The notes under the pieces: model-generated
Databases searched by the model: none
What the model was told of the DNA's origin: nothing
Seen by the model: only the letters and a program-made list of their open reading frames with translations
Program-made: the position numbers and the translations under genes
Assembly: GCA_019748235.1 (NCBI GenBank)
Contig: JAIEPU010000149.1
Span: 1 to 64,000 of the forward strand
Direction of reading: 5' to 3'
Length of the DNA stretch: 64,000 nucleotides
Source: a bacterium
GTDB taxonomy: Bacteria > Planctomycetota > Planctomycetia > Kolteriales > Kolteriaceae
Shown: piece after piece, positions 18,913 through 31,481 of the stretch
How the letters are laid out: each line of letters starts with the position of its first letter
How positions within the stretch are numbered: position 1 is the stretch's first letter

Positions 18913-19011
18913 TTGCCTCGCCATCCAAGTATCATCGATGCTGATTCAAACGCACATCGTCTGATGAGAATTCAATCGGAAAACTCTCCGGATCGAGACA
19001 GAGAGGAACTC

Positions 19012-21291
19012 ATGCGGCGGACTTCGTTCATTTGTTTTGTTTTTTGCGCCTGTGCTTCGATTGCCTCTGCGGAGTGGAAGCCAGCGCCCGTTCCCATCAG
19101 CACTCGCTGGGCGAAGGATGTCGCCCCCGATAAGGCTCATCCGGAGTATCCTCGTCCCCAATTCGTTCGAAAAGAGTGGCAGAATCTGAACGGTCTTTGG
19201 GAGTTCGCCCTCGGAAAATCGAACGACACTCCACCGATCGGTCGAAAGCTCGAACGACAGATTCTCGTCCCCTTCCCCATCGAGTCCTCTCTTTCGGGGG
19301 TTGGAGAGAAGGCAACTGACGTATGGTACCGACGCACGTTCAATGTCGATGAGTGGATCAAGGCCGGGAAGCGGGTCCATCTGCACTTCGGTGCCGTTGA
19401 CTGGGAATCGAATGTCTGGATCAACGGAAGATGGGCGGGTGATCATCGTGGAGGCTACGATGGATTCTCATTCGACATCACCGATCTGTTGAAGCCAACC
19501 GGTGAACAAGAGGTCGTGGTCGGCGTCTGGGATCCGTCCGATCAAGGATTCCAACCTTGCGGAAAGCAAGCGGTCAAGCCGGAAGGAATCTGGTACACGT
19601 CGACCACCGGGATCTGGCAGACGGTTTGGCTCGAACCGGTATCGCCGACGCATATTGCCTCTGTTCGACTCACTCCAGACATTGATAAAAGTCTCTTGCA
19701 CGTTGAAGCAACGATTACCGGCCTACCTGGCGAAGGACACGTCGAGTGCGTCGCGCACGATCCTGACGATAGGACCAAAATCGCGGGGAAAGCAAAGTTC
19801 AGTATCGATCAATCAACCGGCAAAGCGACTGGTGATCTGAGCATTGAGGACGTCAAACTTTGGTCTCCCGATGTGCCGGCACTTTACGATCTGGAAATCA
19901 CTCTCGATGCATCTCAGCCCGGCATCGACCGCGTGAACAGTTATTTCGGCATGCGGAAAATCTCTCTCGGGAAAGATCCGAACGGAGTCACACGATTATT
20001 TCTGAACAATAGCGAGGTCTTTCAATTCGGTCCTCTTGATCAGGGCTTTTGGCCAGACGGCCTCTACACGGCCCCGACGGACGAAGCGCTTCGATATGAC
20101 ATCGAAATCACCAAGCAGCTTGGCTTCAACATGTGCCGAAAGCACGTCAAAGTCGAACCTGATCGCTGGTACTACTGGGCAGACAAGTTGGGGCTTCTGG
20201 TTTGGCAGGACATGCCGAGCGGTGAGCAACGAATTGCACCCGGCTTTCCGGATATCAAACGATCGGCCCAATCCGCCAGGCAGTTCGAGAACGAATTGAA
20301 GGCCATGATCACGAATCTGCACAATCATCCCTCGATCGTGCATTGGGTGGTTTTTAACGAAGGGTGGGGACAGTACGAAACCAAGCGACTCACCGACTTC
20401 GCCAAGGGGTTAGATCCGTCTCGATTGGTGATCGGTGTCAGCGGTTGGAATGATCGCAAGACGGGAGACATTCATGACATTCATCACTACCCTCCTCCTC
20501 GATCTCCGAAGGCAGAAAAGAATCGCGCTGTGGTGAACGGGGAATACGGCGGACTTGGCCTCCCTGTCGAACTTCATACTTGGCAAGGGAAAAACAATTG
20601 GGGCTATCAGCAACTCAAATCGAATGAAGAATTGATGAGCAAGTACGCTGAGTTCGTCGATCAAGTGCGGGTCCTCCGAGGAACGCCAGGGATGTCCGCG
20701 GCCGTCTATACACAGATCACTGATGTCGAAATCGAAGTTAATGGCCTTCTCACCTATGATCGCGAACTCATCAAAGGCGATCTTTATCGGTACCGTGAGT
20801 TGAACACCTCCGTGCATGGTCCCCCGCCGACGCTGAATTCCTTACTTCCAACGTCACGAGACAAAGCACAAAGCTGGAGATTTACATTCGAAAAGCCCAC
20901 CGACGGCTGGCACGGCAAGGAGTTTGATGATTCGTCATGGAAGATCGGCGAAGCGGGATTCGGCAAGCCGGATACACCGAACACGAAAGTGAGAACGGGA
21001 TGGAAGGAAGCAGACATCTGGTTGCGAAAAGCATTCGAGTTGCCGGATCGTCCACTCGCGGAACTCTTCTTCGATGTCCATCATGACGACAACGTCGAGA
21101 TTTACATCAACGGTGAACTGGTGAAGACGCTCGACAAATGGACGAGCGATTATGGTTTAGTACCGCTCGGAGACGAAGCGAAGAAACATCTGAAGCCTGG
21201 GGCGAATGTGATTGCGGTCCATTGTCATCAGGATGCTGGCGGGCAATACATTGACCTGGGAATCGTCGAGCGAGTCGACCATCAAAAGTGA
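19012..21291 (+). CDS. Exported glycoside hydrolase family 2 enzyme
   Basis: The start is placed at the ATG at 19012 after GAGAGGAACTC, giving 759 residues with a clear signal peptide (MRRTSFICFVFCACASIASA). The N-terminal jelly roll shows FVRKEWQNLNGLWEFAL and WYRRTF, followed by an immunoglobulin-like domain and a TIM barrel. The acid/base Glu is E450 in VFNEGW and the nucleophile is E511 in NGEYGG, both intact. The C-terminal 120 residues (WRFTFEKPTDGWHGKEFDDSSW onward) look like an added beta-sandwich carbohydrate-binding module. The family includes beta-galactosidases, glucuronidases and mannosidases; substrate is uncertain. A longer frame to 18913 is rejected. It ends 16 bases before the stop of the opposing fusion gene. 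Confidence 0.9.
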   Translation: MRRTSFICFVFCACASIASAEWKPAPVPISTRWAKDVAPDKAHPEYPRPQFVRKEWQNLNGLWEFALGKSNDTPPIGRKLERQILVPFPIESSLSGVGEKATDVWYRRTFNVDEWIKAGKRVHLHFGAVDWESNVWINGRWAGDHRGGYDGFSFDITDLLKPTGEQEVVVGVWDPSDQGFQPCGKQAVKPEGIWYTSTTGIWQTVWLEPVSPTHIASVRLTPDIDKSLLHVEATITGLPGEGHVECVAHDPDDRTKIAGKAKFSIDQSTGKATGDLSIEDVKLWSPDVPALYDLEITLDASQPGIDRVNSYFGMRKISLGKDPNGVTRLFLNNSEVFQFGPLDQGFWPDGLYTAPTDEALRYDIEITKQLGFNMCRKHVKVEPDRWYYWADKLGLLVWQDMPSGEQRIAPGFPDIKRSAQSARQFENELKAMITNLHNHPSIVHWVVFNEGWGQYETKRLTDFAKGLDPSRLVIGVSGWNDRKTGDIHDIHHYPPPRSPKAEKNRAVVNGEYGGLGLPVELHTWQGKNNWGYQQLKSNEELMSKYAEFVDQVRVLRGTPGMSAAVYTQITDVEIEVNGLLTYDRELIKGDLYRYRELNTSVHGPPPTLNSLLPTSRDKAQSWRFTFEKPTDGWHGKEFDDSSWKIGEAGFGKPDTPNTKVRTGWKEADIWLRKAFELPDRPLAELFFDVHHDDNVEIYINGELVKTLDKWTSDYGLVPLGDEAKKHLKPGANVIAVHCHQDAGGQYIDLGIVERVDHQK

Positions 21292-21307: not shown

Positions 21308-24300
21308 TCACTTCACGGTCTCCGGATTCTGGGCGATGAAGCTGAAGATGTCCGCGAGGCCCTGTGGAGAAATATCCTTCTCGAGTCCTTCCGGCATGAA
21401 CGACTTCCCGCTTGAGACGAGTCGTTCAATATCCACGCGGAGGAGCTTTTCGACCTTTCCGTCGGGACGCGCCAGGGTAATGCTTCCCGACGTTTCAATC
21501 ACGATCATACCGGATAGAACCCGCCCGTCGGTCATCTCCGCTGTATAGCTCAAGTATTTTGACTCGACCGCTCGATTCGGATCGAGCACGGAGAGAAGAA
21601 GATAAGGAGGAGTTCGATCCCGAACTCCTCCCAGATCCGGCCCGACGATCTGCCCTAATCCGCCAAATCGATGGCAGTTGGCGCAATTCTTTACGAAGAG
21701 TTCTCGCCCCCGCGACGGATCACCTTTCGTAGTCAACACGGATTGATGTTCGTCGAGGACCGCTTGGCGACTTTGTTGGCTCGACGCCAGAATATCCATC
21801 GCGCGATTCGACACGGAACTTTTGGTGTGCGTGACAAGAGCCTGTTGCACAGACGCGCCCAAATCTGCGGGGAGTACATCCTTGGCCTCGAGGGCTCCTA
21901 GTAACTTGTCGATCCATTCAGGACGACTCATCAACACCGACAAAACTTCTGATCTCGCGGAAGGGCTTCGCGATCGCCAATCAGAGAGAAGGATTCGCGG
22001 AACGTCGTCGGTTCTCAACTTCCCCAGTGTTTGAATCGCTGCGAGTTGGACCTCAATGGGAGCGGTGGAAGGAAGACAATTCGCGAGCAGCGCTCGGTCT
22101 TCGGTCGTGCCGTCGATTCCACGCCCCAGAACGCTGATCGCTGCCACTCGATTCGAATTTTCTGTCTCGATCGCCTCTGCTCGCGCCGAATTCATCAAAG
22201 CTTGGACAGAGGAGACGAGTTCGTTATTCTTCTTTCCCGTCTGCTCGGACCATCTTTGCAACGACGTTGCTCGCCGATCCAATGCATCCATTAGCGTGGC
22301 GACTGATTGATACTGCCAGGCGGCCGGTCGCTCCCCCGTCGGAGGCAATACCTGGGCCAAGACTCTCTCAACCCCTGCTTCGCCGAACACTCCGATCGCC
22401 GTCGCTAACAGTCCATCAACGAGACTCCCCTTCCCCTTCGAATCCCCCGGGGCCGCGAGCACCTTTCGAAGTACGACTTCCGGGTGATGAATCGAGGAAC
22501 TGAGGATCGCAGCGCGCATCCATTCATTATCCGCATCACGGGCGGCCATGATCCCGAGAGCATCCGCGCTGCGAGCGTCCATCTGTTCCCCCAAAGAACA
22601 GGCAACCTGAAACCGCACACGGATCTCCTCATCAGAGGCGAGCTTGGCTACTTCATTGGCAAGAGATTCGTCTTTGTTCAAAAAGGGTTCCGAGAAACGG
22701 ATCGCCCAGCGCCTGACGTCCGGCTGAGCGTCACGAAGCGCTTCCTTTAGAATCTCGGGACGTAAGGCATTGAGGCCTTCGAGAGTCCCTAGTGCCGAGA
22801 GCTTTGCTTTCGGATTTGAGGGGAGCTTGATGATCGCTTCGATTTCTCCCGCCACGCCCGTCTCTTTTTCCATGATCAAGAGATGCTGGGCCGTGTCACG
22901 CTCCCAACCGTTCGAACTTTCTAATCTCTGCACGAGATCTGAAGGGTTATCTTGCCGGAGATTGGGTAGCGCGCCAGGTCGCTTTCCTTTCGGATAGACG
23001 CGATAGATTCGTCCCTTGTCGCTGCCAGACCGGACATCAAGTCGAGCGAGCCATGCCTCAGGGATCCAGTTAGGGTGCTCGATCACTTGACGATACATGT
23101 CCGCGATCCAAACCGCGCCGTCTGGGCCGGTGACCGCGCGAACAGGCCGTGACCAGGGGTCGGCCGATGAAAAAAACTCTGACTGCGCATCAACAGGGAA
23201 TCGCTCCGCCCGGAACTCAAGGCCGTCTTTCACGTACCGAGAACGATGAACGAGGTTATGGACCGGCTCGCAGGCGAAGATCGTTTCGCTAGATTGGTCG
23301 CCTAAAAGCGAGTCCCGATACGGATTCGGGCTGCATGCCGACGTGAATCGGCCCGCGGTGAAGAGATCATTGAATCGATCAACGATTCGGCTGGAAGGAA
23401 ACACCTGCGGATAAAATCCGCCATACAAGTCTTTCCAGGGTCGTGGCGAGGCGACGTAGGGATTTCGGCGAATGTATTTCTCCTCGAGCACATAGTGCCA
23501 ATAAGGGCAATAATTCGCGCCGCCGAACCAGTGACCGAAATCGTCGCGGGAGCGAAGGTGCTGCGTCATCCCGCACTCCGTTTCGAGTTCGCCCGTGAAT
23601 GGTTTGAATCGTCCGTCGCGACCTTGCATGTTGACTTTTTGATTGGTGACCGGAGAGCGGATCACTCCCGTATCGTCGCCGTTGATGTAAATCCAGTTGT
23701 CTATCCCAACGCAAAAGCCGTTCACCACATGCTGCGGATTGCCGACTTCGAATCCATCAAGGATGACTTGCTGCTTGCTTGCCTTCCCGGTAGCGGGGTC
23801 GATCTCAGCATAGATAATTGCCGGTGGCGCGCTGACGAGGACGCCCTCCTTCCAGGGGAAGACGCCGGTCGCGAAATGAAGTCCTTCCAGAAAGAGGGTG
23901 CTTTTGTCGAATCGGCCATCCCGGTCAGTGTCTTCCAAGTAGCGAATCCGCCCCCCCGGCGAACCGTGATTGTCCTCGCCGAGCGGGTAATCGCCCATTT
24001 CCGCGACCCAAAGTTTTCCATCAGGTCCAAAGGCGACGTTCACCGGATCCTTGACGAGCGGTTCCGCGGCGACGAGCTCTACCTCGAGTCCATCAGCCAC
24101 GTGAATATGCTTGAGAGACTCTTCCGGAGAAAGATTCCCTTCTCCTTCCGGATGCTCGATCAAATCATGCACGCGCCGGATGACGACCTCTTCCGTCCCC
24201 GTCGACCATGGACCGGGCTGATTGTAGAAGTACATCGAGTAGTCGTACTCGTAGCCCCCCTCCTTTCGCATTCGTTCCGACGCCAGGTACCCGTAAACGT

Positions 24301-25516
24301 CATTTGCATAAGCGGTGATCCAAAGCTTTTCGACAGGGGCAATCGCGGCCAATTCTTTGTCCAGCCTGAGCGTGTAATCGACCACGACTTCGCCACCGAG
24401 AAAAATCATGGTGAGCGCATCGCCAAAACGAATGACCTGAATCGGCGCCGGATACGTTTCTGGTAAACGATCCTTGCGCTCAAGGATGGCGAGCATGTTT
24501 TTCGCATGTTGCTGAATGACGGGATCTTTAGAGGCAAGTCTGGTGGTGAGTTCCACTCGATTGGGCCGATCCGAGGGCAGGCCGGCAAATCCCAGGATCG
24601 CGCTCGTGGGCGCATCGATCGATCGCATCGGTTTCTTCAGAACGTCCACGACAGCATCGTGAGCCTCTTTGCCGTGCTGTTTGGCGAGGTCCAGAGTGCC
24701 ACGCGGTTCGGGATTGGCATCCGCGCCGCATCCAATGAGTGTCAGTGCGATGACACCGGGAAAAGTCGATTCGAGTCCTGAAGAGGCGAAACCGGGCCAA
24801 TCGCCGCTCAGCCGATTATATTCGCCGGGGATGGTCGTCGCGTGACACGCATAGTTGGAGACGATTCCCCGAAGTTGTCCCTCGGCGTTCGTGATTCGAA
24901 TGACAGGAAGACGATGGTCGACCGGCCCATCCTTTTGCACGCCGAAACCTTTCCACTTTCCGTTGTTCAAGACTCGACGATTGGCGGCGAAGCTTCCCTT
25001 GCCCCATCCAATTTCGAGCTTTCCCGGTTTCAAGTCCTTCAATGCGTCAACGATGGATTGAGCAATTTGTTTAACCGCGAATGCGGTGTATTCGTTCATG
25101 GCGTCGATCTCGGCCGCGTTCATTTTCGGACCGAAGAGATTGCTCGCCACCCCCTTCACATGAGGCGCGGTGTGCGTATGAGTCGCACAGAGAATGAATC
25201 GCTCAGGAGAGAGCGAAGATTCACCAACAATATCGAGCACCTCCTGGCGCATGGCAGAGGTGACGCCGAGAAGTTCGACCGCCGTCCAGACGGTGAGTTC
25301 CCCTTTGCTGTCCCTGACGGCTAATGTCCGCGCGAAAATCGGCGCATCGATTCCCTCATAGGGACGATCTCGATTGCCATAGCCGGAAAGACGAAGTGGT
25401 CGGCTCGGAGTGATATCGGACTTCGCAAGCCCTACCTCGAATTCAGCTTGAACAGACGACGCTTCGACGAAAAGCAAAAACGATGCGGAGAGTACGATGA
25501 TTAAGCAAAGTCGCAT
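21308..25516 (-). CDS. Ceramidase-like / PVC membrane dehydrogenase / cytochrome c fusion protein
   Basis: The 1402-residue exported protein starts with a signal peptide (MRLCLIIVLSASFLLFVEA). Residues about 25-450 resemble the N-terminal domain of neutral/alkaline ceramidase, with the metal site ATHTHTAPH and GCGADANPEPRGT. Residues about 475-880 are the PVC-type dehydrogenase/beta-propeller domain (VAFGPDGKLWVAEMGDYP, GADGAVWIADMYRQVIEHP-like segments). Then comes a helical HEAT-like stretch, and a PVC-type haem domain with one c-type haem site CANCHRFGGLGQIVGPDLGG around residue 1290. AAGGG lies seven bases before the ATG. The mix suggests a periplasmic enzyme that couples lipid amide or related hydrolysis to electron transfer, which is inference. 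Confidence 0.88.
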   Translation of the reverse strand: MRLCLIIVLSASFLLFVEASSVQAEFEVGLAKSDITPSRPLRLSGYGNRDRPYEGIDAPIFARTLAVRDSKGELTVWTAVELLGVTSAMRQEVLDIVGESSLSPERFILCATHTHTAPHVKGVASNLFGPKMNAAEIDAMNEYTAFAVKQIAQSIVDALKDLKPGKLEIGWGKGSFAANRRVLNNGKWKGFGVQKDGPVDHRLPVIRITNAEGQLRGIVSNYACHATTIPGEYNRLSGDWPGFASSGLESTFPGVIALTLIGCGADANPEPRGTLDLAKQHGKEAHDAVVDVLKKPMRSIDAPTSAILGFAGLPSDRPNRVELTTRLASKDPVIQQHAKNMLAILERKDRLPETYPAPIQVIRFGDALTMIFLGGEVVVDYTLRLDKELAAIAPVEKLWITAYANDVYGYLASERMRKEGGYEYDYSMYFYNQPGPWSTGTEEVVIRRVHDLIEHPEGEGNLSPEESLKHIHVADGLEVELVAAEPLVKDPVNVAFGPDGKLWVAEMGDYPLGEDNHGSPGGRIRYLEDTDRDGRFDKSTLFLEGLHFATGVFPWKEGVLVSAPPAIIYAEIDPATGKASKQQVILDGFEVGNPQHVVNGFCVGIDNWIYINGDDTGVIRSPVTNQKVNMQGRDGRFKPFTGELETECGMTQHLRSRDDFGHWFGGANYCPYWHYVLEEKYIRRNPYVASPRPWKDLYGGFYPQVFPSSRIVDRFNDLFTAGRFTSACSPNPYRDSLLGDQSSETIFACEPVHNLVHRSRYVKDGLEFRAERFPVDAQSEFFSSADPWSRPVRAVTGPDGAVWIADMYRQVIEHPNWIPEAWLARLDVRSGSDKGRIYRVYPKGKRPGALPNLRQDNPSDLVQRLESSNGWERDTAQHLLIMEKETGVAGEIEAIIKLPSNPKAKLSALGTLEGLNALRPEILKEALRDAQPDVRRWAIRFSEPFLNKDESLANEVAKLASDEEIRVRFQVACSLGEQMDARSADALGIMAARDADNEWMRAAILSSSIHHPEVVLRKVLAAPGDSKGKGSLVDGLLATAIGVFGEAGVERVLAQVLPPTGERPAAWQYQSVATLMDALDRRATSLQRWSEQTGKKNNELVSSVQALMNSARAEAIETENSNRVAAISVLGRGIDGTTEDRALLANCLPSTAPIEVQLAAIQTLGKLRTDDVPRILLSDWRSRSPSARSEVLSVLMSRPEWIDKLLGALEAKDVLPADLGASVQQALVTHTKSSVSNRAMDILASSQQSRQAVLDEHQSVLTTKGDPSRGRELFVKNCANCHRFGGLGQIVGPDLGGVRDRTPPYLLLSVLDPNRAVESKYLSYTAEMTDGRVLSGMIVIETSGSITLARPDGKVEKLLRVDIERLVSSGKSFMPEGLEKDISPQGLADIFSFIAQNPETVK

Positions 25517-25715: not shown

Positions 25716-26249
25716 TTACTCGGCCGGAGCCAGAAGTGATTCAACGGATTGCCGTGTTTCGACAGGCCAGTTTGCAATGGTTGTCGGCGACGCAAGTTCC
25801 CAATCGGAGAACTCAAAGCCGGGGGCGACGGTTGTTCCCAGGAGAGCCCACTTTCCTCCATCGATAAGCCGGGAGCCTTGCCATACTCCAGAGGGTACGA
25901 CCCCCTGGCACTGCTCATCATTAATCAAGCGATTGGAAAGAGTGACTTGCGAAAGTGCCCCAGAATCATCGACAAGCGAAAGAAGAATGGGATCGCCCGC
26001 ATGAAAGAAGTAAACCTCGTCCGACTTCAACCGATGCAGCGCGGAAAAGGTTTCATCGGTGAGAAGGTAGTAGATGGCCGTCGAACTCTGTCGAGACGAT
26101 CCTTGGTATCTTGATGGTAAAGCCTCACCCGGAATTGAAAGGAGACTTCGATGCGTCTCGCGAAAAAATCCCCCTTCACCCGGAAGAGGAACGAGGGCGA
26201 GCTTTTGAATTACTTCGAATGCGCTCAGCCGTTCGCCGTCAGACATCAT
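25716..26249 (-). CDS. Cupin superfamily protein (DUF985)
   Basis: The 177-residue protein matches the DUF985 cupin pattern: LALVPLPGEGGFFRETHRS, STAIYYLLTDETFSALHRLKSDEVYFFHAGDPI, GVVPSGVWQGSRL and LLGTTVAPGFEFSDWEL. Single-domain cupins of this family are small beta barrels of unknown function, often sugar or metal binding. The start ATG overlaps the stop of the upstream tetrahaem gene in ATGA, so translation is probably coupled. No signal peptide is seen. Confidence 0.88.
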   Translation of the reverse strand: MMSDGERLSAFEVIQKLALVPLPGEGGFFRETHRSLLSIPGEALPSRYQGSSRQSSTAIYYLLTDETFSALHRLKSDEVYFFHAGDPILLSLVDDSGALSQVTLSNRLINDEQCQGVVPSGVWQGSRLIDGGKWALLGTTVAPGFEFSDWELASPTTIANWPVETRQSVESLLAPAE

Positions 26250-27814
26250 GGCTTTCCAGGATGAGCTACTTTAGGCCAATAGGTTTCGAAGTTGAAGTGA
26301 ACACTGTTCTCCGCGTCGTGACACTTCTGGCAATCGTTGGCGTTCTTTGAAACTCGCATCAATGCGCGTCCCGCTTCATCCGCAGGATTACCCGCATGTC
26401 GACTACCGGGACCGTGACAGTTCTCACACCCCACGCCTCCCAGATCAGGAGTTTTATCCGGCGTGATGAATCCGCTTGTAAAGCCCTGCCCCACGACGTG
26501 ACATTTCACACATTCGGGGTTGTAGTCTTGTCCCTCGGGTTTTGCATCCTGCAGCGTGACGAGAGCATGACTATGCTTCGATTGTTTCCAGATGTCGAAT
26601 GCTCGCGGATGGCACGAGGCGCATCGACCTGAGCCGATGTATGTCGCGTCATTGGCCGGCGGCAATTGCGGCATCTTTGCCAAGTATTCCTCGTCTCCCA
26701 GATACTTCACGAACCGGCCGTAGATATCCTTGATCGGCTCATTCTCTTTGAACCTTGGATCGATCGGAACGATTTCGTAACGGATTTTCGGAGTGCCCTC
26801 GGGCCAGAATCCAAGGACACCGACCTCCATTCCCTTCTGACCGATCCACGTCACCAGGGTGTCACCGACTTGGGTGGAGTCCTCTTTCGTCGGATGTTCC
26901 AACAAACTTTGAGTGACGATGAGATCGAAACCAGGGTGTGACTTGGCTAGCTCGACCGCTTCCTCTTTCGTCATGTGCGCGAGCAACACTTTCAAATCAG
27001 CGCCGTCTTCCTTCATCTTTTCCAAGATTTTTGTCGTGGCTTCAGCGACAGGCTGGACCTTGATGGATTGATCCCGAATGTCCTTTTGCTCGGCATCGCC
27101 GATCACCGAACCGATCGCTACTTTTTTGCCAGCAATTTCAATCGTCTTCGAAGGAAGGATGAATTCACCGACGACCACATTGAAGTCGTCCTGGTCAGAT
27201 TTGATGTTGCCCGCAAGCAATGTCAGCGGATCCGCATTGAGCGCTTCTCCCGCGACCGTCATGGCTTTGATGGAAAGATCCTTCGTGCCTACTCCGACCA
27301 CTTTGTATCCCATGGTCTTCAGCGACTCGAGCACATAGCGATAGCGAGCTTCATCCCACGGAACTTCCGCCTTGATCAGGTCGCCGAAGTCAACGGGTAG
27401 CGTTTCCCACTTCTTTTCATTTTTCAGATACTCGATCAGTCCCGCTCGACGAGATAACCCGCCGCTCTGGCCTTCGCTGCAACCGCATGGACGCATGTAG
27501 CCGAACATTTCGCCGGACAGGAGCAAAACGAAAGCCGGATTCTCTTTCGGCCAGTCGTCGAATAAAGGGACTTCCTGGGCGACGGGAAAGCTTTCTCCCT
27601 TTCCCTCCTTGGCCGAGCTATCTCCGTGGGCAGGATCTTTCGCCTCGGGTCGTGACGTGGCCTTTTCCACCGCGCTGCCCAACTTGGCAACGCCAATGGC
27701 GCTGATGTAGCCGCTTCCTAAACCAAGCGCTGCCACGAGGACGATGCCGGCGAAGACGATGGGGACTAAGACGTAGGTCATCAGACGACCGGGCCGGGAA
27801 GCGGCATGTTTCAT
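26246..27814 (-). CDS. Phosphoesterase-fold (UshA/SoxB-like) protein fused to four c-type haem sites
   Basis: The 522-residue protein has an N-terminal membrane anchor (LMTYVLVPIVFAGIVLVAALGLG), so the rest is periplasmic. Residues about 90-370 follow the 5'-nucleotidase/metallophosphatase order, but the metal motifs look lost: the first strand reads LLLSGEMFGYMRPCGCSEGQSGG, the GNHE position reads GTKDL, and the H-x-H region reads LLAHMTKEEA. The C-terminal 130 residues hold four CXXCH haem sites: CASCH, CVKCH, CENCH and CQKCH, as in cytochrome c-554-like proteins. It is followed with ATGA overlap by the cupin gene and preceded by the DUF1573 gene. A periplasmic redox role is likely; the reaction is unknown. 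Confidence 0.85.
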   Translation of the reverse strand: MKHAASRPGRLMTYVLVPIVFAGIVLVAALGLGSGYISAIGVAKLGSAVEKATSRPEAKDPAHGDSSAKEGKGESFPVAQEVPLFDDWPKENPAFVLLLSGEMFGYMRPCGCSEGQSGGLSRRAGLIEYLKNEKKWETLPVDFGDLIKAEVPWDEARYRYVLESLKTMGYKVVGVGTKDLSIKAMTVAGEALNADPLTLLAGNIKSDQDDFNVVVGEFILPSKTIEIAGKKVAIGSVIGDAEQKDIRDQSIKVQPVAEATTKILEKMKEDGADLKVLLAHMTKEEAVELAKSHPGFDLIVTQSLLEHPTKEDSTQVGDTLVTWIGQKGMEVGVLGFWPEGTPKIRYEIVPIDPRFKENEPIKDIYGRFVKYLGDEEYLAKMPQLPPANDATYIGSGRCASCHPRAFDIWKQSKHSHALVTLQDAKPEGQDYNPECVKCHVVGQGFTSGFITPDKTPDLGGVGCENCHGPGSRHAGNPADEAGRALMRVSKNANDCQKCHDAENSVHFNFETYWPKVAHPGKP

Positions 27815-27859: not shown

Positions 27860-29140
27860 TTACTTCGCTTCGCTGTCGGCGACGGTCCCCTCAAACGCGA
27901 CATTGAGTTGGATCTCACCTTTCGAATCGAATACGGGAACGAATCCCTGGAACTTACCTTGTGGGCGGTCCGGCTTCACAAACACTTCGAGGATCCATAG
28001 TTGTTTGGAATCCTCATGGCGACGAATCGTCGCCCCAATAAAGTCGGCTTGAATCGTCTTTCCGTCAACGTCAAGAAAATGAATCCGCTTCTCGTCGACG
28101 GAAAGTGTTTCCTCTGGAGGCAATCCGCGCGTCGAAATGCTGAGTTTCTTCGAGTGATTTCCCGGTCCGCGAATGAGGTCGAAGCGAGCTTTATCCGGGT
28201 GAACCTCGATCAGCCCATCCACAAACCCCGTCACCAGAACAACTAACTCCTTTTGCCCCTCGATGTTGGTCTTGAATTGCAGTTTCTGCTGCAAGTCGCC
28301 AAAGGGGAGCTTTCCATTCGCGGTCACCGTCACTTCGAAGCCTGATTTTGCCTTCTTTCTCTCCTTTTCCTCGTCCGTCATGGGGCGAAGCGTCGCGGAG
28401 ATCGATGGGTTCGTCGAAGATAGGAACTCAACCTGAAGATCTTCTCTAGTGGGAGAATAGATCGACAACGTCTCCTCACGGAGCTGATTCTCGCGCAGTT
28501 GCCCAAAGTTCACATGCGTTGGATTCATCATCAGCGATGCTTGCACGTGAAGGCGTACATCGAACGAAACGTTCTTCTTATTTGGATCATTCGTGAAGAT
28601 GTCTCCGCCGATCTGTTTGATCCCGACTTGATCTTTCGTGTCCCACTCAATCACATAGTCGGCGCTCTCGCCGGTTTTGAGCGTAATGATCGCCGAGGGA
28701 TTGACATTTCCCTGCCCGTCAACCGCCTCGCTAATGTGATCGCGCTTCTTCGGATCTTGTTCCGGATGAAGAGTCTTTTGACGATCCTCCATTTCTTTCG
28801 TCTTGGCGAATCGGCTCAGTACCTTTCCATCCTTTTCGAGCCGAACGGCGGCGCACGTACAACTCTTACTTCCAAGTCGGAGATTGAGCTCTCCCTCACC
28901 AACATTCTTTACAGGGAAACGTGTTTCGCCTGAGGTGAACTGCTTCACGTCGGGAAGATCAATCAGGATTTGATCGACTTGAATCTCGGGAGGCTTTTCG
29001 TCGGGGTTTCTCGGAATCGGCTTTTTGACCGTCGGACCTTTGTTTCCCCCTTTGAACGTATCGGGATTCCAAATGACGAGTGCGGTCGAAAAGGCAGAGA
29101 TCACGATGATCCCGAAACAGACAGTAAGCCAAAACTTCAT
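27860..29140 (-). CDS. Membrane-anchored DUF1573 domain protein
   Basis: The start ATG at 29138-29140 gives 426 residues with a membrane helix right at the N-terminus (MKFWLTVCFGIIVISAFSTALVIW); a longer frame to 29221 puts 27 polar residues before it and overlaps the preceding gene. Residues about 55-150 are a DUF1573 beta-sandwich, with the typical cysteine pair SCTCAA, which in this family suggests metal binding. Two or more further immunoglobulin-like sandwiches follow (GGDIFTNDPNKKNVSFDVRL, LQFKTNIEGQKELVVLVTGF). It probably acts on the periplasmic side and, from gene order, with the adjacent tetrahaem protein. Confidence 0.85.
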   Translation of the reverse strand: MKFWLTVCFGIIVISAFSTALVIWNPDTFKGGNKGPTVKKPIPRNPDEKPPEIQVDQILIDLPDVKQFTSGETRFPVKNVGEGELNLRLGSKSCTCAAVRLEKDGKVLSRFAKTKEMEDRQKTLHPEQDPKKRDHISEAVDGQGNVNPSAIITLKTGESADYVIEWDTKDQVGIKQIGGDIFTNDPNKKNVSFDVRLHVQASLMMNPTHVNFGQLRENQLREETLSIYSPTREDLQVEFLSSTNPSISATLRPMTDEEKERKKAKSGFEVTVTANGKLPFGDLQQKLQFKTNIEGQKELVVLVTGFVDGLIEVHPDKARFDLIRGPGNHSKKLSISTRGLPPEETLSVDEKRIHFLDVDGKTIQADFIGATIRRHEDSKQLWILEVFVKPDRPQGKFQGFVPVFDSKGEIQLNVAFEGTVADSEAK

Positions 29141-29189
29141 GATGCCGCTCTCAGTTCCTTTTAGGTCCAGGCTGACGTCGATTTCGCAA

Positions 29190-31454
29190 CTACGGTTTTC
29201 CGGCGATGTATTTTTCCGCAACCTTCCGCTGAATGTCGGTCAGTCGCTTGTCCAAATGTGGCGTCTTATCCAGTTCAAGGGCCCGCTTGAACTCAGTCAA
29301 CGCCTCTGCCCTGTCGTTCTGTTCTGACAGAATATTTCCAAGCTCCCATCGGCGAAGAGCCGAATTAGGATAAAGCTGCACGGCGCGTCGATACTCTTCT
29401 ACCGCAAGCTTAGTCGCATCGGCATCCAAGCCTGATCCTGCTGCTTCATGGTACAGCGCGCCGAGTTGACGGTGGGTCTCTGATCGGCGTGGATCCAACG
29501 CGATGGCTTGTTCCCAAGCCTTTACCGCCGCTCGATAGCTCCTGGCTTCATTCTTCGATCGAAGCTGTGCGGCTAGCCGCATTCGTGACATTTCCGCCGC
29601 TGCCAACCGTTCCCATCCCTGTCGGTCGCCGGGGACCTTCTCCGCCGCCTCGCGACAGGCATTCGCCCACTGCTCCATGAGTGGTACGAGCCGAGTCCAA
29701 ATTTGAGGAGTCACGGCCGAAGGATTCCTCGGTTGCGAGCGACTTAAGTCTTCCTCAATACTACGAGCTTTCTCGGCCGCGAGATCGCGTTCAATTCGAG
29801 GTACGAGCAAGGTGAATGCGTATCCGAGAGTAATTCCCGCCAAAACGACCACAAAGGCTGTGTGACCCCAGAAAGAGAATCTCATTTTGGAAGTCGAGGG
29901 GAGACTGGCTGCTCCCAATAATCCCCAGAGCGCCATCATCAATGAGGGGAAAGCGACTCCACCCGCCGCCAACCAATGAACGTGCAGACCGACAACCCCG
30001 GCGACAGTTCCTTTACGCAGAGATAAATCGTTCCATTCGATGCCACTCCCGTGAATAACCGCGAGCAGCATCGCCGCGAATGGGAAGGCGATCACTTGAG
30101 GATACTGATCGAAGCTCGCCAGCAGTGGAACGAGTCCAATATCGAACACCGCGACGACGATGGTAGCGAGGACGACGCCGACGAGCCAGGAACCATCAAT
30201 TCCGAGTCCTCTCGACGGATAGGGAACCGTTGAATGGCTGGGTCGTGTCGCCCCTCTTATGCCGATGAAAAGAAGAGCTAAATAAGCGATCAAAGTCAAC
30301 AATCCGCCGGTGGCCCATAACTCGATGAGAAAGTTATGCGGATCGGAAATCTCCTCACTTGAAAAGGGAAGCTTGTGTGCCAGGTAGTGTCCCCGGAAAT
30401 TTCCCGACCCCACCCCAAGTAACCAATGGTGACGAATGACGGGCATACTCGCTTGCCACCATTCCCATCGGTATTGCATCGATTGCGAAGACTGTGTGAT
30501 GACTTGTGGATCCAAGATGCCGCCGAGCACGAGGCCGACGACCGCCAGAATCAGTAGCGCAATGACCACTCCGACGACCGTTCGATACTTCCGCCATACG
30601 ACATAACTCACCCCGGACATAAGGAGATAGAGTCCGACGGCAACGACTGCTGCTATCCATGCGGAACGACTCTTTGTGAGAAGGAGCGTTACAACGATGG
30701 CCGCCGTCGTGACCAGTGAGAGGATCATGCCGACGACGCGCGGGCCTTTCGGAATCAAACTGTTCCAGGCCAACAACAGCGTGATGGGGAGGCCGAGAAC
30801 TAATAATCCGGCGAGGGAATTCGGGTGGCCCGTCGTCCCCAATGGCTCGGTTGAATAAAGGCGATTCTTGAATGCCTGCTCTGCCGGCCCTCCTTTCTCC
30901 ACACCGATCTCACGCATGGCTTTCGTGAGGGACTCATCTCCCTTCTCGTAAAGGGCACGCAATTGAGGAATGGTCACAAAGATTTCGTAGCCCGCGAGCG
31001 TGGACTGCATCAAACAGAGTGTAACGACGAGGATGGCGATATATTTGGGACCACGTAGCGCGCCCCAATGGACCGCATACAAACAAACCATTCCAACGCC
31101 GATCCATTCCCAAACCGCAATCTCCGCGGGATAACGGTACTCAGCCACACTCGCGCTCAGAATCCAGCCGGCGACGAGCATCAGCCAGCCAATCAGCCAG
31201 TTCCAAAGGGGGGGGCTCGGAATCCCCGCCAATCGTTCGATGATCAGGCAGAAACCACAAAGGAGTGCTGCCGGAAAAAAGTAAATTCCTGAACCGTCAC
31301 TAATGTTCTCAGCAGGGAAAAGGTTACGGCTGGCAATTGCCATTACGATCGCGACCGCACCGATTCGATGGACGATGGTGGCGATAAGATCGAGTGCTCC
31401 GCCGTTCGATACGGTCGGACTCGTGGAATTCAGATTTGTAGCCGTTGAGTTCAT
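29190..31454 (-). CDS. O-antigen ligase-like membrane protein with C-terminal TPR repeats
   Basis: The 754-residue protein has about twelve hydrophobic segments and an O-antigen ligase/polymerase core, with RYEWWQASMPVIRHHWLLGVGSGNF-like loop (around 30380-30480) and FLIELWATGGLLTLIAYLALLF. Residues about 570-750 form TPR-like helices (AVKAWEQAIALDPRRSETHRQLGALYHEA, AVEEYRRAVQLYPNSALRRWELGNIL, ALTEFKRALELDKT). It would polymerise or transfer envelope polysaccharide. An AAGGAG plus GGAG lies ahead of the ATG; a TTG one codon earlier is not needed. It sits 27 bases after the WecA-like gene and 49 before DUF1573, consistent with one transcript. Confidence 0.87.
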   Translation of the reverse strand: MNSTATNLNSTSPTVSNGGALDLIATIVHRIGAVAIVMAIASRNLFPAENISDGSGIYFFPAALLCGFCLIIERLAGIPSPPLWNWLIGWLMLVAGWILSASVAEYRYPAEIAVWEWIGVGMVCLYAVHWGALRGPKYIAILVVTLCLMQSTLAGYEIFVTIPQLRALYEKGDESLTKAMREIGVEKGGPAEQAFKNRLYSTEPLGTTGHPNSLAGLLVLGLPITLLLAWNSLIPKGPRVVGMILSLVTTAAIVVTLLLTKSRSAWIAAVVAVGLYLLMSGVSYVVWRKYRTVVGVVIALLILAVVGLVLGGILDPQVITQSSQSMQYRWEWWQASMPVIRHHWLLGVGSGNFRGHYLAHKLPFSSEEISDPHNFLIELWATGGLLTLIAYLALLFIGIRGATRPSHSTVPYPSRGLGIDGSWLVGVVLATIVVAVFDIGLVPLLASFDQYPQVIAFPFAAMLLAVIHGSGIEWNDLSLRKGTVAGVVGLHVHWLAAGGVAFPSLMMALWGLLGAASLPSTSKMRFSFWGHTAFVVVLAGITLGYAFTLLVPRIERDLAAEKARSIEEDLSRSQPRNPSAVTPQIWTRLVPLMEQWANACREAAEKVPGDRQGWERLAAAEMSRMRLAAQLRSKNEARSYRAAVKAWEQAIALDPRRSETHRQLGALYHEAAGSGLDADATKLAVEEYRRAVQLYPNSALRRWELGNILSEQNDRAEALTEFKRALELDKTPHLDKRLTDIQRKVAEKYIAGKP

Positions 31455-31481
31455 CAAAGAGAGCTCCGCACTCCTTGCGGT

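Follow-up and report, generated by a model that had tools for sequence, protein, structure and literature searches.

A UshA-like phosphoesterase fold with a decayed metal site and an invariant Cys-Gly-Cys motif, fused to a tetrahaem cytochrome in Planctomycetia: a candidate periplasmic dithiol oxidoreductase

The window analyzed here, a stretch of 64,000 nucleotides (contig JAIEPU010000149.1, positions 1 to 64,000) from a planctomycete of the family Kolteriaceae, carries on its minus strand a gene for a 522-residue protein, called the CGC protein below after its Cys-Gly-Cys motif, and, 46 bp upstream of it, a gene for a protein related to DUF1573. The relevant features are as follows:

26246-27814, minus strand: gene of the CGC tetrahaem protein (522 aa; UshA-like, NF041198-like)
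27695-27784, minus strand: putative N-terminal hydrophobic membrane anchor (approximately residues 11 to 40, read from the sequence)
26750-27550, minus strand: predicted calcineurin-like phosphoesterase fold of the UshA type, metal-free (approximately residues 89 to 355; model, profile match and Foldseek)
27479-27487, minus strand: Cys110-Gly111-Cys112, with the position of Cys112 taken by selenocysteine (UGA) in other lineages
26249-26650, minus strand: cytochrome c554-like tetrahaem domain (CXXCH at residues 398, 435, 463 and 495)
27860-29221, minus strand: gene of a DUF1573/HYDIN-type Ig-like protein (453 aa; N-terminal membrane helix, Cys-Thr-Cys motif)

From its N terminus, the CGC protein consists of the anchor, a linker, a domain of some 270 residues that contains the CGC motif (residues 110 to 112, inside GYMRPCGCSEGQSGGL; RPCGC spans residues 108 to 112) and a C-terminal stretch with the four CXXCH sites. 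It is most likely anchored in the membrane and faces the periplasm. Matches to Pfam were confined to cytochrome families, all of them in the C-terminal part.

A Cupin_5/DUF985 gene (25716-26249, minus strand) shares its first 4 bp with the end of the CGC protein gene; comparison of the loci showed this neighbor again only in the nearest relative (G001). Further along lie a gene (21308-25516, minus strand) for a 1,402-aa fusion of a neutral/alkaline ceramidase-like N terminus, DUF7133, HEAT repeats and a C-terminal single-haem cytochrome c, an odd combination of lipid hydrolase and redox modules, and an ordinary glycoside hydrolase family 2 gene (18913-21291, plus strand). On the other side, an O-antigen ligase (Wzy_C) fused to C-terminal TPR repeats (29190-31457, minus strand) is followed by a WecA/MraY-like gene; both are syntenic with the DUF1573/CGC pair in several Planctomycetia, and no functional tie of the O-antigen ligase/TPR gene to the CGC protein was evident.

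A preliminary description of this DNA had proposed that the N-terminal part follows the order of UshA/SoxB-like phosphoesterases, and both structural and profile comparisons upheld this. The structure predicted from an alignment with 66 homologues (mean pLDDT, 93.5; pTM, 0.92) retrieved 5'-nucleotidases as the top matches in a Foldseek search of the PDB (3ivd, 4e-20; UshA 1hp1, 2e-18; SoxB, 2e-16), and a profile built from the same alignment matched, with its N-terminal part, 5'-nucleotidases (4.6e-25), UshA (2e-14) and SoxB (1e-11). The modeled fold is UshA/SoxB-like, with nucleotidases nearer than SoxB. While the N-terminal fold and the order of its elements are thus those of the 5'-nucleotidase/UshA family (COG0737), the CGC protein lacks conserved metal ligands or catalytic residues and carries the tetrahaem domain in place of the nucleotide-binding C-terminal domain of UshA.

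Mapped by profile alignment to 3ivd, the eight metal-binding or catalytic positions of UshA correspond to E102, F104, D145, T177, K178, H280, S303 and L305 of the CGC protein, which keeps the ancestral residue at two of them (D145 and H280). The canonical residue was found, in the same order of positions, in 11, 18, 17, 2, 1, 33, 8 and 0 of the 66 homologues. None of the eight positions is conserved in this set and no homologue retains more than three of the residues, so the metal site is apparently no longer under selection. The absence of Asp, His and Asn ligands, as initially described, therefore stands in the sense that no ligand position is conserved, but not for every residue, since D145 and H280 remain in the CGC protein itself; the aligned UshA positions keep no dinuclear metal site. 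Where UshA has its first metal loop (NDxH), the CGC protein has a different stretch, and the CGC motif comes immediately after it.

The C-terminal part proved to be the tetrahaem cytochrome that had been anticipated from four CXXCH sites, and the haem count is kept in all 66 homologues. It scored 61.7 bits against PF13435 (cut-off, 20.8), and the C-terminal part of the alignment-built profile matched cytochrome c554 with an E value of 5e-28. The four CXXCH sites have the same arrangement as in cytochrome c554 of Nitrosomonas, from which the domain differs in being fused to the CGC domain and in a fourth-haem region that aligns only loosely. Beyond the CXXCH sites, only three histidines (H414, H473 and H518) are invariant in the 66 homologues, a number consistent with the haem ligation pattern of c554, that is, three bis-His haems and one five-coordinate haem, the latter reportedly present in c554.

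Together with all four CXXCH sites, C110, G111 and C112 are invariant in 30/30 Planctomycetia homologues and in 66/66 of the wider aligned set, which is far beyond chance; the conserved residues around the motif are P109, C110, G111, C112, G118 and G119. Among 80 named loci, covering Planctomycetota (anammox genera included), Verrucomicrobiota, Armatimonadota and a few MAGs assigned elsewhere, 79 encode CGC, and the 80th, from a Myxococcales MAG (L146) whose genome contains SelA, reads PCG-UGA (CGU). One apparent exception (L145) was rejected, as its assembly is frameshifted and CGC is present in another frame. Two distant Planctomycetota homologues (L031 and L032) read CDC and CAC, so the middle Gly is variable, and the survey yielded no variation of either Cys other than to selenocysteine: the motif is present and kept, as the preliminary description had required of it.

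The exchange for selenocysteine is confined to the second Cys. Thirty Myxococcota homologues, fetched from a search of 113 genomes, comprised 19 with PCGC and 11 with PCG-UGA; in each of the latter, UGA takes the place of the second Cys codon and the frame has no other stop. In addition, five Planctomycetota genomes (G053, G080, G118, G135 and G150), belonging to families other than that of the host of the CGC protein, contain tandem pairs with one CG-UGA copy and, where the motif was read, an adjoining CGC copy; all five encode SelB and tRNA-Sec over cut-off. The UshA-like tetrahaem tandem at L041:8003-11069 (plus strand), found also in L042, L043 and L044, is a natural Sec/Cys pair. Judged by simple rules for bacterial SECIS elements (a hairpin loop 12 to 37 nucleotides downstream of the UGA, with a G near the start of the loop), a SECIS-like hairpin follows the motif in 15 of 16 Sec genes, compared to 9 of 23 Cys genes, and in several of the Sec genes its apical loop is GGUCU, as in the SECIS of Escherichia coli fdhF. 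At least three Cys/Sec changes are required by a tree of 106 proteins, which was inferred by a quick method (LG+G4) and is indicative only. In the gene studied here, the motif reads CGC and there is no in-frame UGA; since neither SelA nor SelB was found over cut-off in the host genome (G000), nor in its two nearest relatives (G001 and G002), residue 112 is a plain Cys here. Exchange of a Cys for Sec usually marks a redox-active residue, and with such replacement at one position in several lineages, a purely structural role for CGC is hard to argue.

The best NCBIfam match of the CGC protein is NF041198, "UshA-like (seleno)protein" (UshA_like_PCGU), at 214.7 bits against a cut-off of 275, a score that makes it a homologous outlier rather than a formal member. 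The match spans both halves and is collinear to the end of the model (protein residues 385 to 510 correspond to model positions 398 to 519 of 519), and all 66 aligned homologues match NF041198 as well. Full-length collinear homology, the PCG[C/U] motif and the four-haem C terminus are shared with this family (the GOS "COG0737 UshA-like, CxU" family); what sets the CGC protein apart is that it is a Cys form, encoded in a genome without SelA or SelB over cut-off and paired with DUF1573. On the strength of these comparisons, we regard it as an outlying, Cys-only branch of a named, uncharacterized family. That family was first noticed in 2008 in marine metagenomes as COG0737 "UshA-like" with CxU (PMC2398784), in a paper whose main text mentions neither a cytochrome nor planctomycetes; later reviews list it, the entries giving no function (PMC9312934, PMC13188914), and the Sec/Cys motif is given in PMC2398784 and PMC13188914. 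Where these papers name the family, the haem domain, the pairing with DUF1573 and a function go unmentioned; Haft and Tolstoy (2025, mSystems) may treat the family. An UshA-like CGC protein was found in all 39 Planctomycetia genomes searched, and the main text of a study of gene essentiality in Planctopirus limnophila does not name its gene. The universality in Planctomycetia, the DUF1573 pairing and a concrete redox hypothesis may be new.

Membership of SoxB in the same superfamily had led to the guess of a sulfur substrate, and on that ground the guess was not supported. SoxB is one of several relatives, with nucleotidases closer; the SoxB model TIGR04486 scores 30.4 bits on the CGC protein (cut-off, 550); and the protein differs from SoxB thiosulfohydrolase in having no conserved dinuclear metal ligands. 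Moreover, not one of the 39 Planctomycetia genomes, all of which carry the CGC protein, has SoxB over cut-off, although two have strong subthreshold SoxB relatives, and a Sox-like sulfur pathway was rejected on this count. As regards gene context, the CGC protein gene has a DUF1573-like gene, an O-antigen ligase-type gene and a cupin gene for neighbors. The other part of the original proposal, a redox domain rather than a phosphatase, fared better, with the metal site gone, CGC invariant and Cys and Sec exchanged at the second position; a thiol/disulfide role, on grounds other than kinship to SoxB, is our best guess.

The upstream neighbor provides a possible partner. Its predicted structure consists of about three Ig-like beta domains behind an N-terminal membrane helix, and the best hits in a fold search were HYDIN/ASH-type Ig domains. 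The host copy scores 19.9 bits against the DUF1573 model of Pfam (gathering score, 26.1), and 49 of 51 homologues of the neighbor match that model at an E value of ≤0.001, on which basis we assign it as a divergent DUF1573 protein. Of the 77 loci whose flank extends for 1 kb or more, 56 have a DUF1573-like gene immediately upstream in the same orientation. The Pfam model, with just 2 to 10 matches per genome, independently places one match beside the UshA-like gene in eight Planctomycetia genomes, and in the anammox genus Scalindua, the UshA-like and DUF1573-like genes form a pair standing alone. Across 51 rows, the first Cys of the neighbor's CxC motif never varies and the second is kept in at least 90%, CxC being replaced by CxxC or CC or lost in a few copies; none of these reads UGA, and a Sec form of the neighbor was discarded. 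The CxC motif is shared with the OS_HP2/DUF1573 selenoprotein family, from which the host copy differs in its Cys form and its three Ig-like domains. That family is listed with UxC/UGC in PMC2398784 and PMC13188914. We found no literature on DUF1573 in planctomycetes, nor, where the UshA-like family is named, a description of the adjacency. SoxYZ proteins are Ig-like; a role of the neighbor as SoxYZ-like carrier was considered and rejected, as no SoxYZ appeared in the top 50 of the fold search. In Myxococcota, as well as in several Verrucomicrobia, no DUF1573 gene adjoins the homologue, so the neighbor is not an obligate partner across the family. In the verrucomicrobial loci L144 (3303-3935), L148 (3208-3858) and L150 (2931-3602), the upstream gene encodes a GCCCCGG-motif DUF4159 protein, not DUF1573, with the DUF4159 identity confirmed for L150 only. 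In L150, the downstream gene, overlapping that of the CGC homologue by 4 nucleotides, encodes a thioredoxin-fold protein.

Taken together, the CGC protein most probably acts on sulfur groups as an electron-transfer enzyme, and not as a phosphatase. With a probability of roughly one-half, we propose a periplasmic dithiol (in other lineages, selenol) oxidoreductase that would pass electrons from thiols via its four haems to the cytochrome chain, with the DUF1573 protein as partner. The invariant CG[C/U], the decayed metal site, the fusion to a c554-like domain and the CxC-bearing neighbor argue for this, as do the thioredoxin-fold neighbor in L150 and the lack of both DsbB and VKOR in 28 of the 39 Planctomycetia genomes. 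Cys110 and Cys112 would cycle between dithiol and disulfide, and CGC would accept an electron pair from a sulfur substrate. The likeliest candidates for this substrate are the CxC of the DUF1573 protein, whose conservation suggests a thiol relay, or else protein thiols relayed by it; the electrons would then leave singly through the haems toward a cytochrome c/terminal oxidase chain. In other lineages, Sec in place of the second Cys would make this exchange faster. We infer the substrate, the direction and the partner, the direction (thiol oxidation instead of disulfide reduction) being the least certain step.

The anatomy of the protein fits either direction of electron flow, and a reductase, in which electrons from a cytochrome chain would reach CGC through the haems and reduce periplasmic disulfides, peroxides or oxidized sulfur or selenium compounds, has a modest chance of being correct. 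Many selenoproteins are reductases, and the thioredoxin-fold gene adjoining in L150 would suit such a role. However, many Planctomycetia, in which the family is universal among the genomes searched, are aerobes, where electrons flow downhill from thiols to oxygen, and the neighborhood of the gene showed no protein dedicated to supplying the haems with electrons.

The main structural rival concerns the haems themselves: the thiolate or selenolate of CGC/CGU might bind or approach a five-coordinate, c554-like haem, as in SoxAX and TsdA, yielding a one-center enzyme for sulfur compounds. The three extra invariant histidines are one short of what four bis-His haems need, and c554 itself is said to contain one five-coordinate haem, while Cys-/His ligation of catalytic haems is documented in thiosulfate dehydrogenase (PMC9562282). 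On the other hand, CGC belongs to the N-terminal domain, and haem ligation leaves unexplained why two Cys are conserved and why only the second is replaced by Sec; we consider it rather unlikely. Less probable still is a metal sensor or chaperone in which CGC would hold an ion such as Cu(I) or Zn and the haems would serve as conduit: other proteins use CxC pairs to bind soft metals, and Sec is able to ligate metals too, yet no further soft-metal ligand is found among the conserved residues near the motif. That the protein is an inactive phosphoesterase relic, in which CGC would be no more than a structural disulfide and only the haems would still function, would agree with a 5'-nucleotidase fold whose metal site has decayed but is highly improbable, since repeated Cys/Sec replacement at one position is unexpected for a structural disulfide.

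DsbB was found in 3 and VKOR in 9 of the 39 Planctomycetia genomes, and 11 have one of the two; Thioredoxin_4/DsbA-like proteins were over cut-off in 8, and a search for Erv/ALR was uninformative, as its controls gave no match. Cysteine-rich cell wall proteins have been described in planctomycetes (PMC8567305), and with DsbB and VKOR lacking in most genomes, this makes thiol oxidation the more attractive direction, although the relation is a correlation only and the absence of DsbB and VKOR is not tied to the CGC protein gene specifically. A bolder version, that the CGC tetrahaem and DUF1573 proteins together form the thiol oxidase of Planctomycetes, replacing DsbB and VKOR in periplasmic (cell wall) disulfide formation where both are missing and delivering thiol electrons to cytochromes instead of quinones, is speculative, and we would not bet on it.

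Should the dithiol oxidoreductase reading be correct, a phosphatase fold would have turned into a selenol- or thiol-haem oxidoreductase, a chemical shift that is seldom seen. Both families of the pair are selenoproteins elsewhere (CxU in the UshA-like family, UxC in DUF1573), and their pairing offers a concrete and testable partner. The CGC protein, present in 39/39 genomes, apparently belongs to the core gene set of Planctomycetia. The absence of DsbB and VKOR from most of these genomes raises the question of how Planctomycetes, with their cysteine-rich wall proteins, make disulfides.
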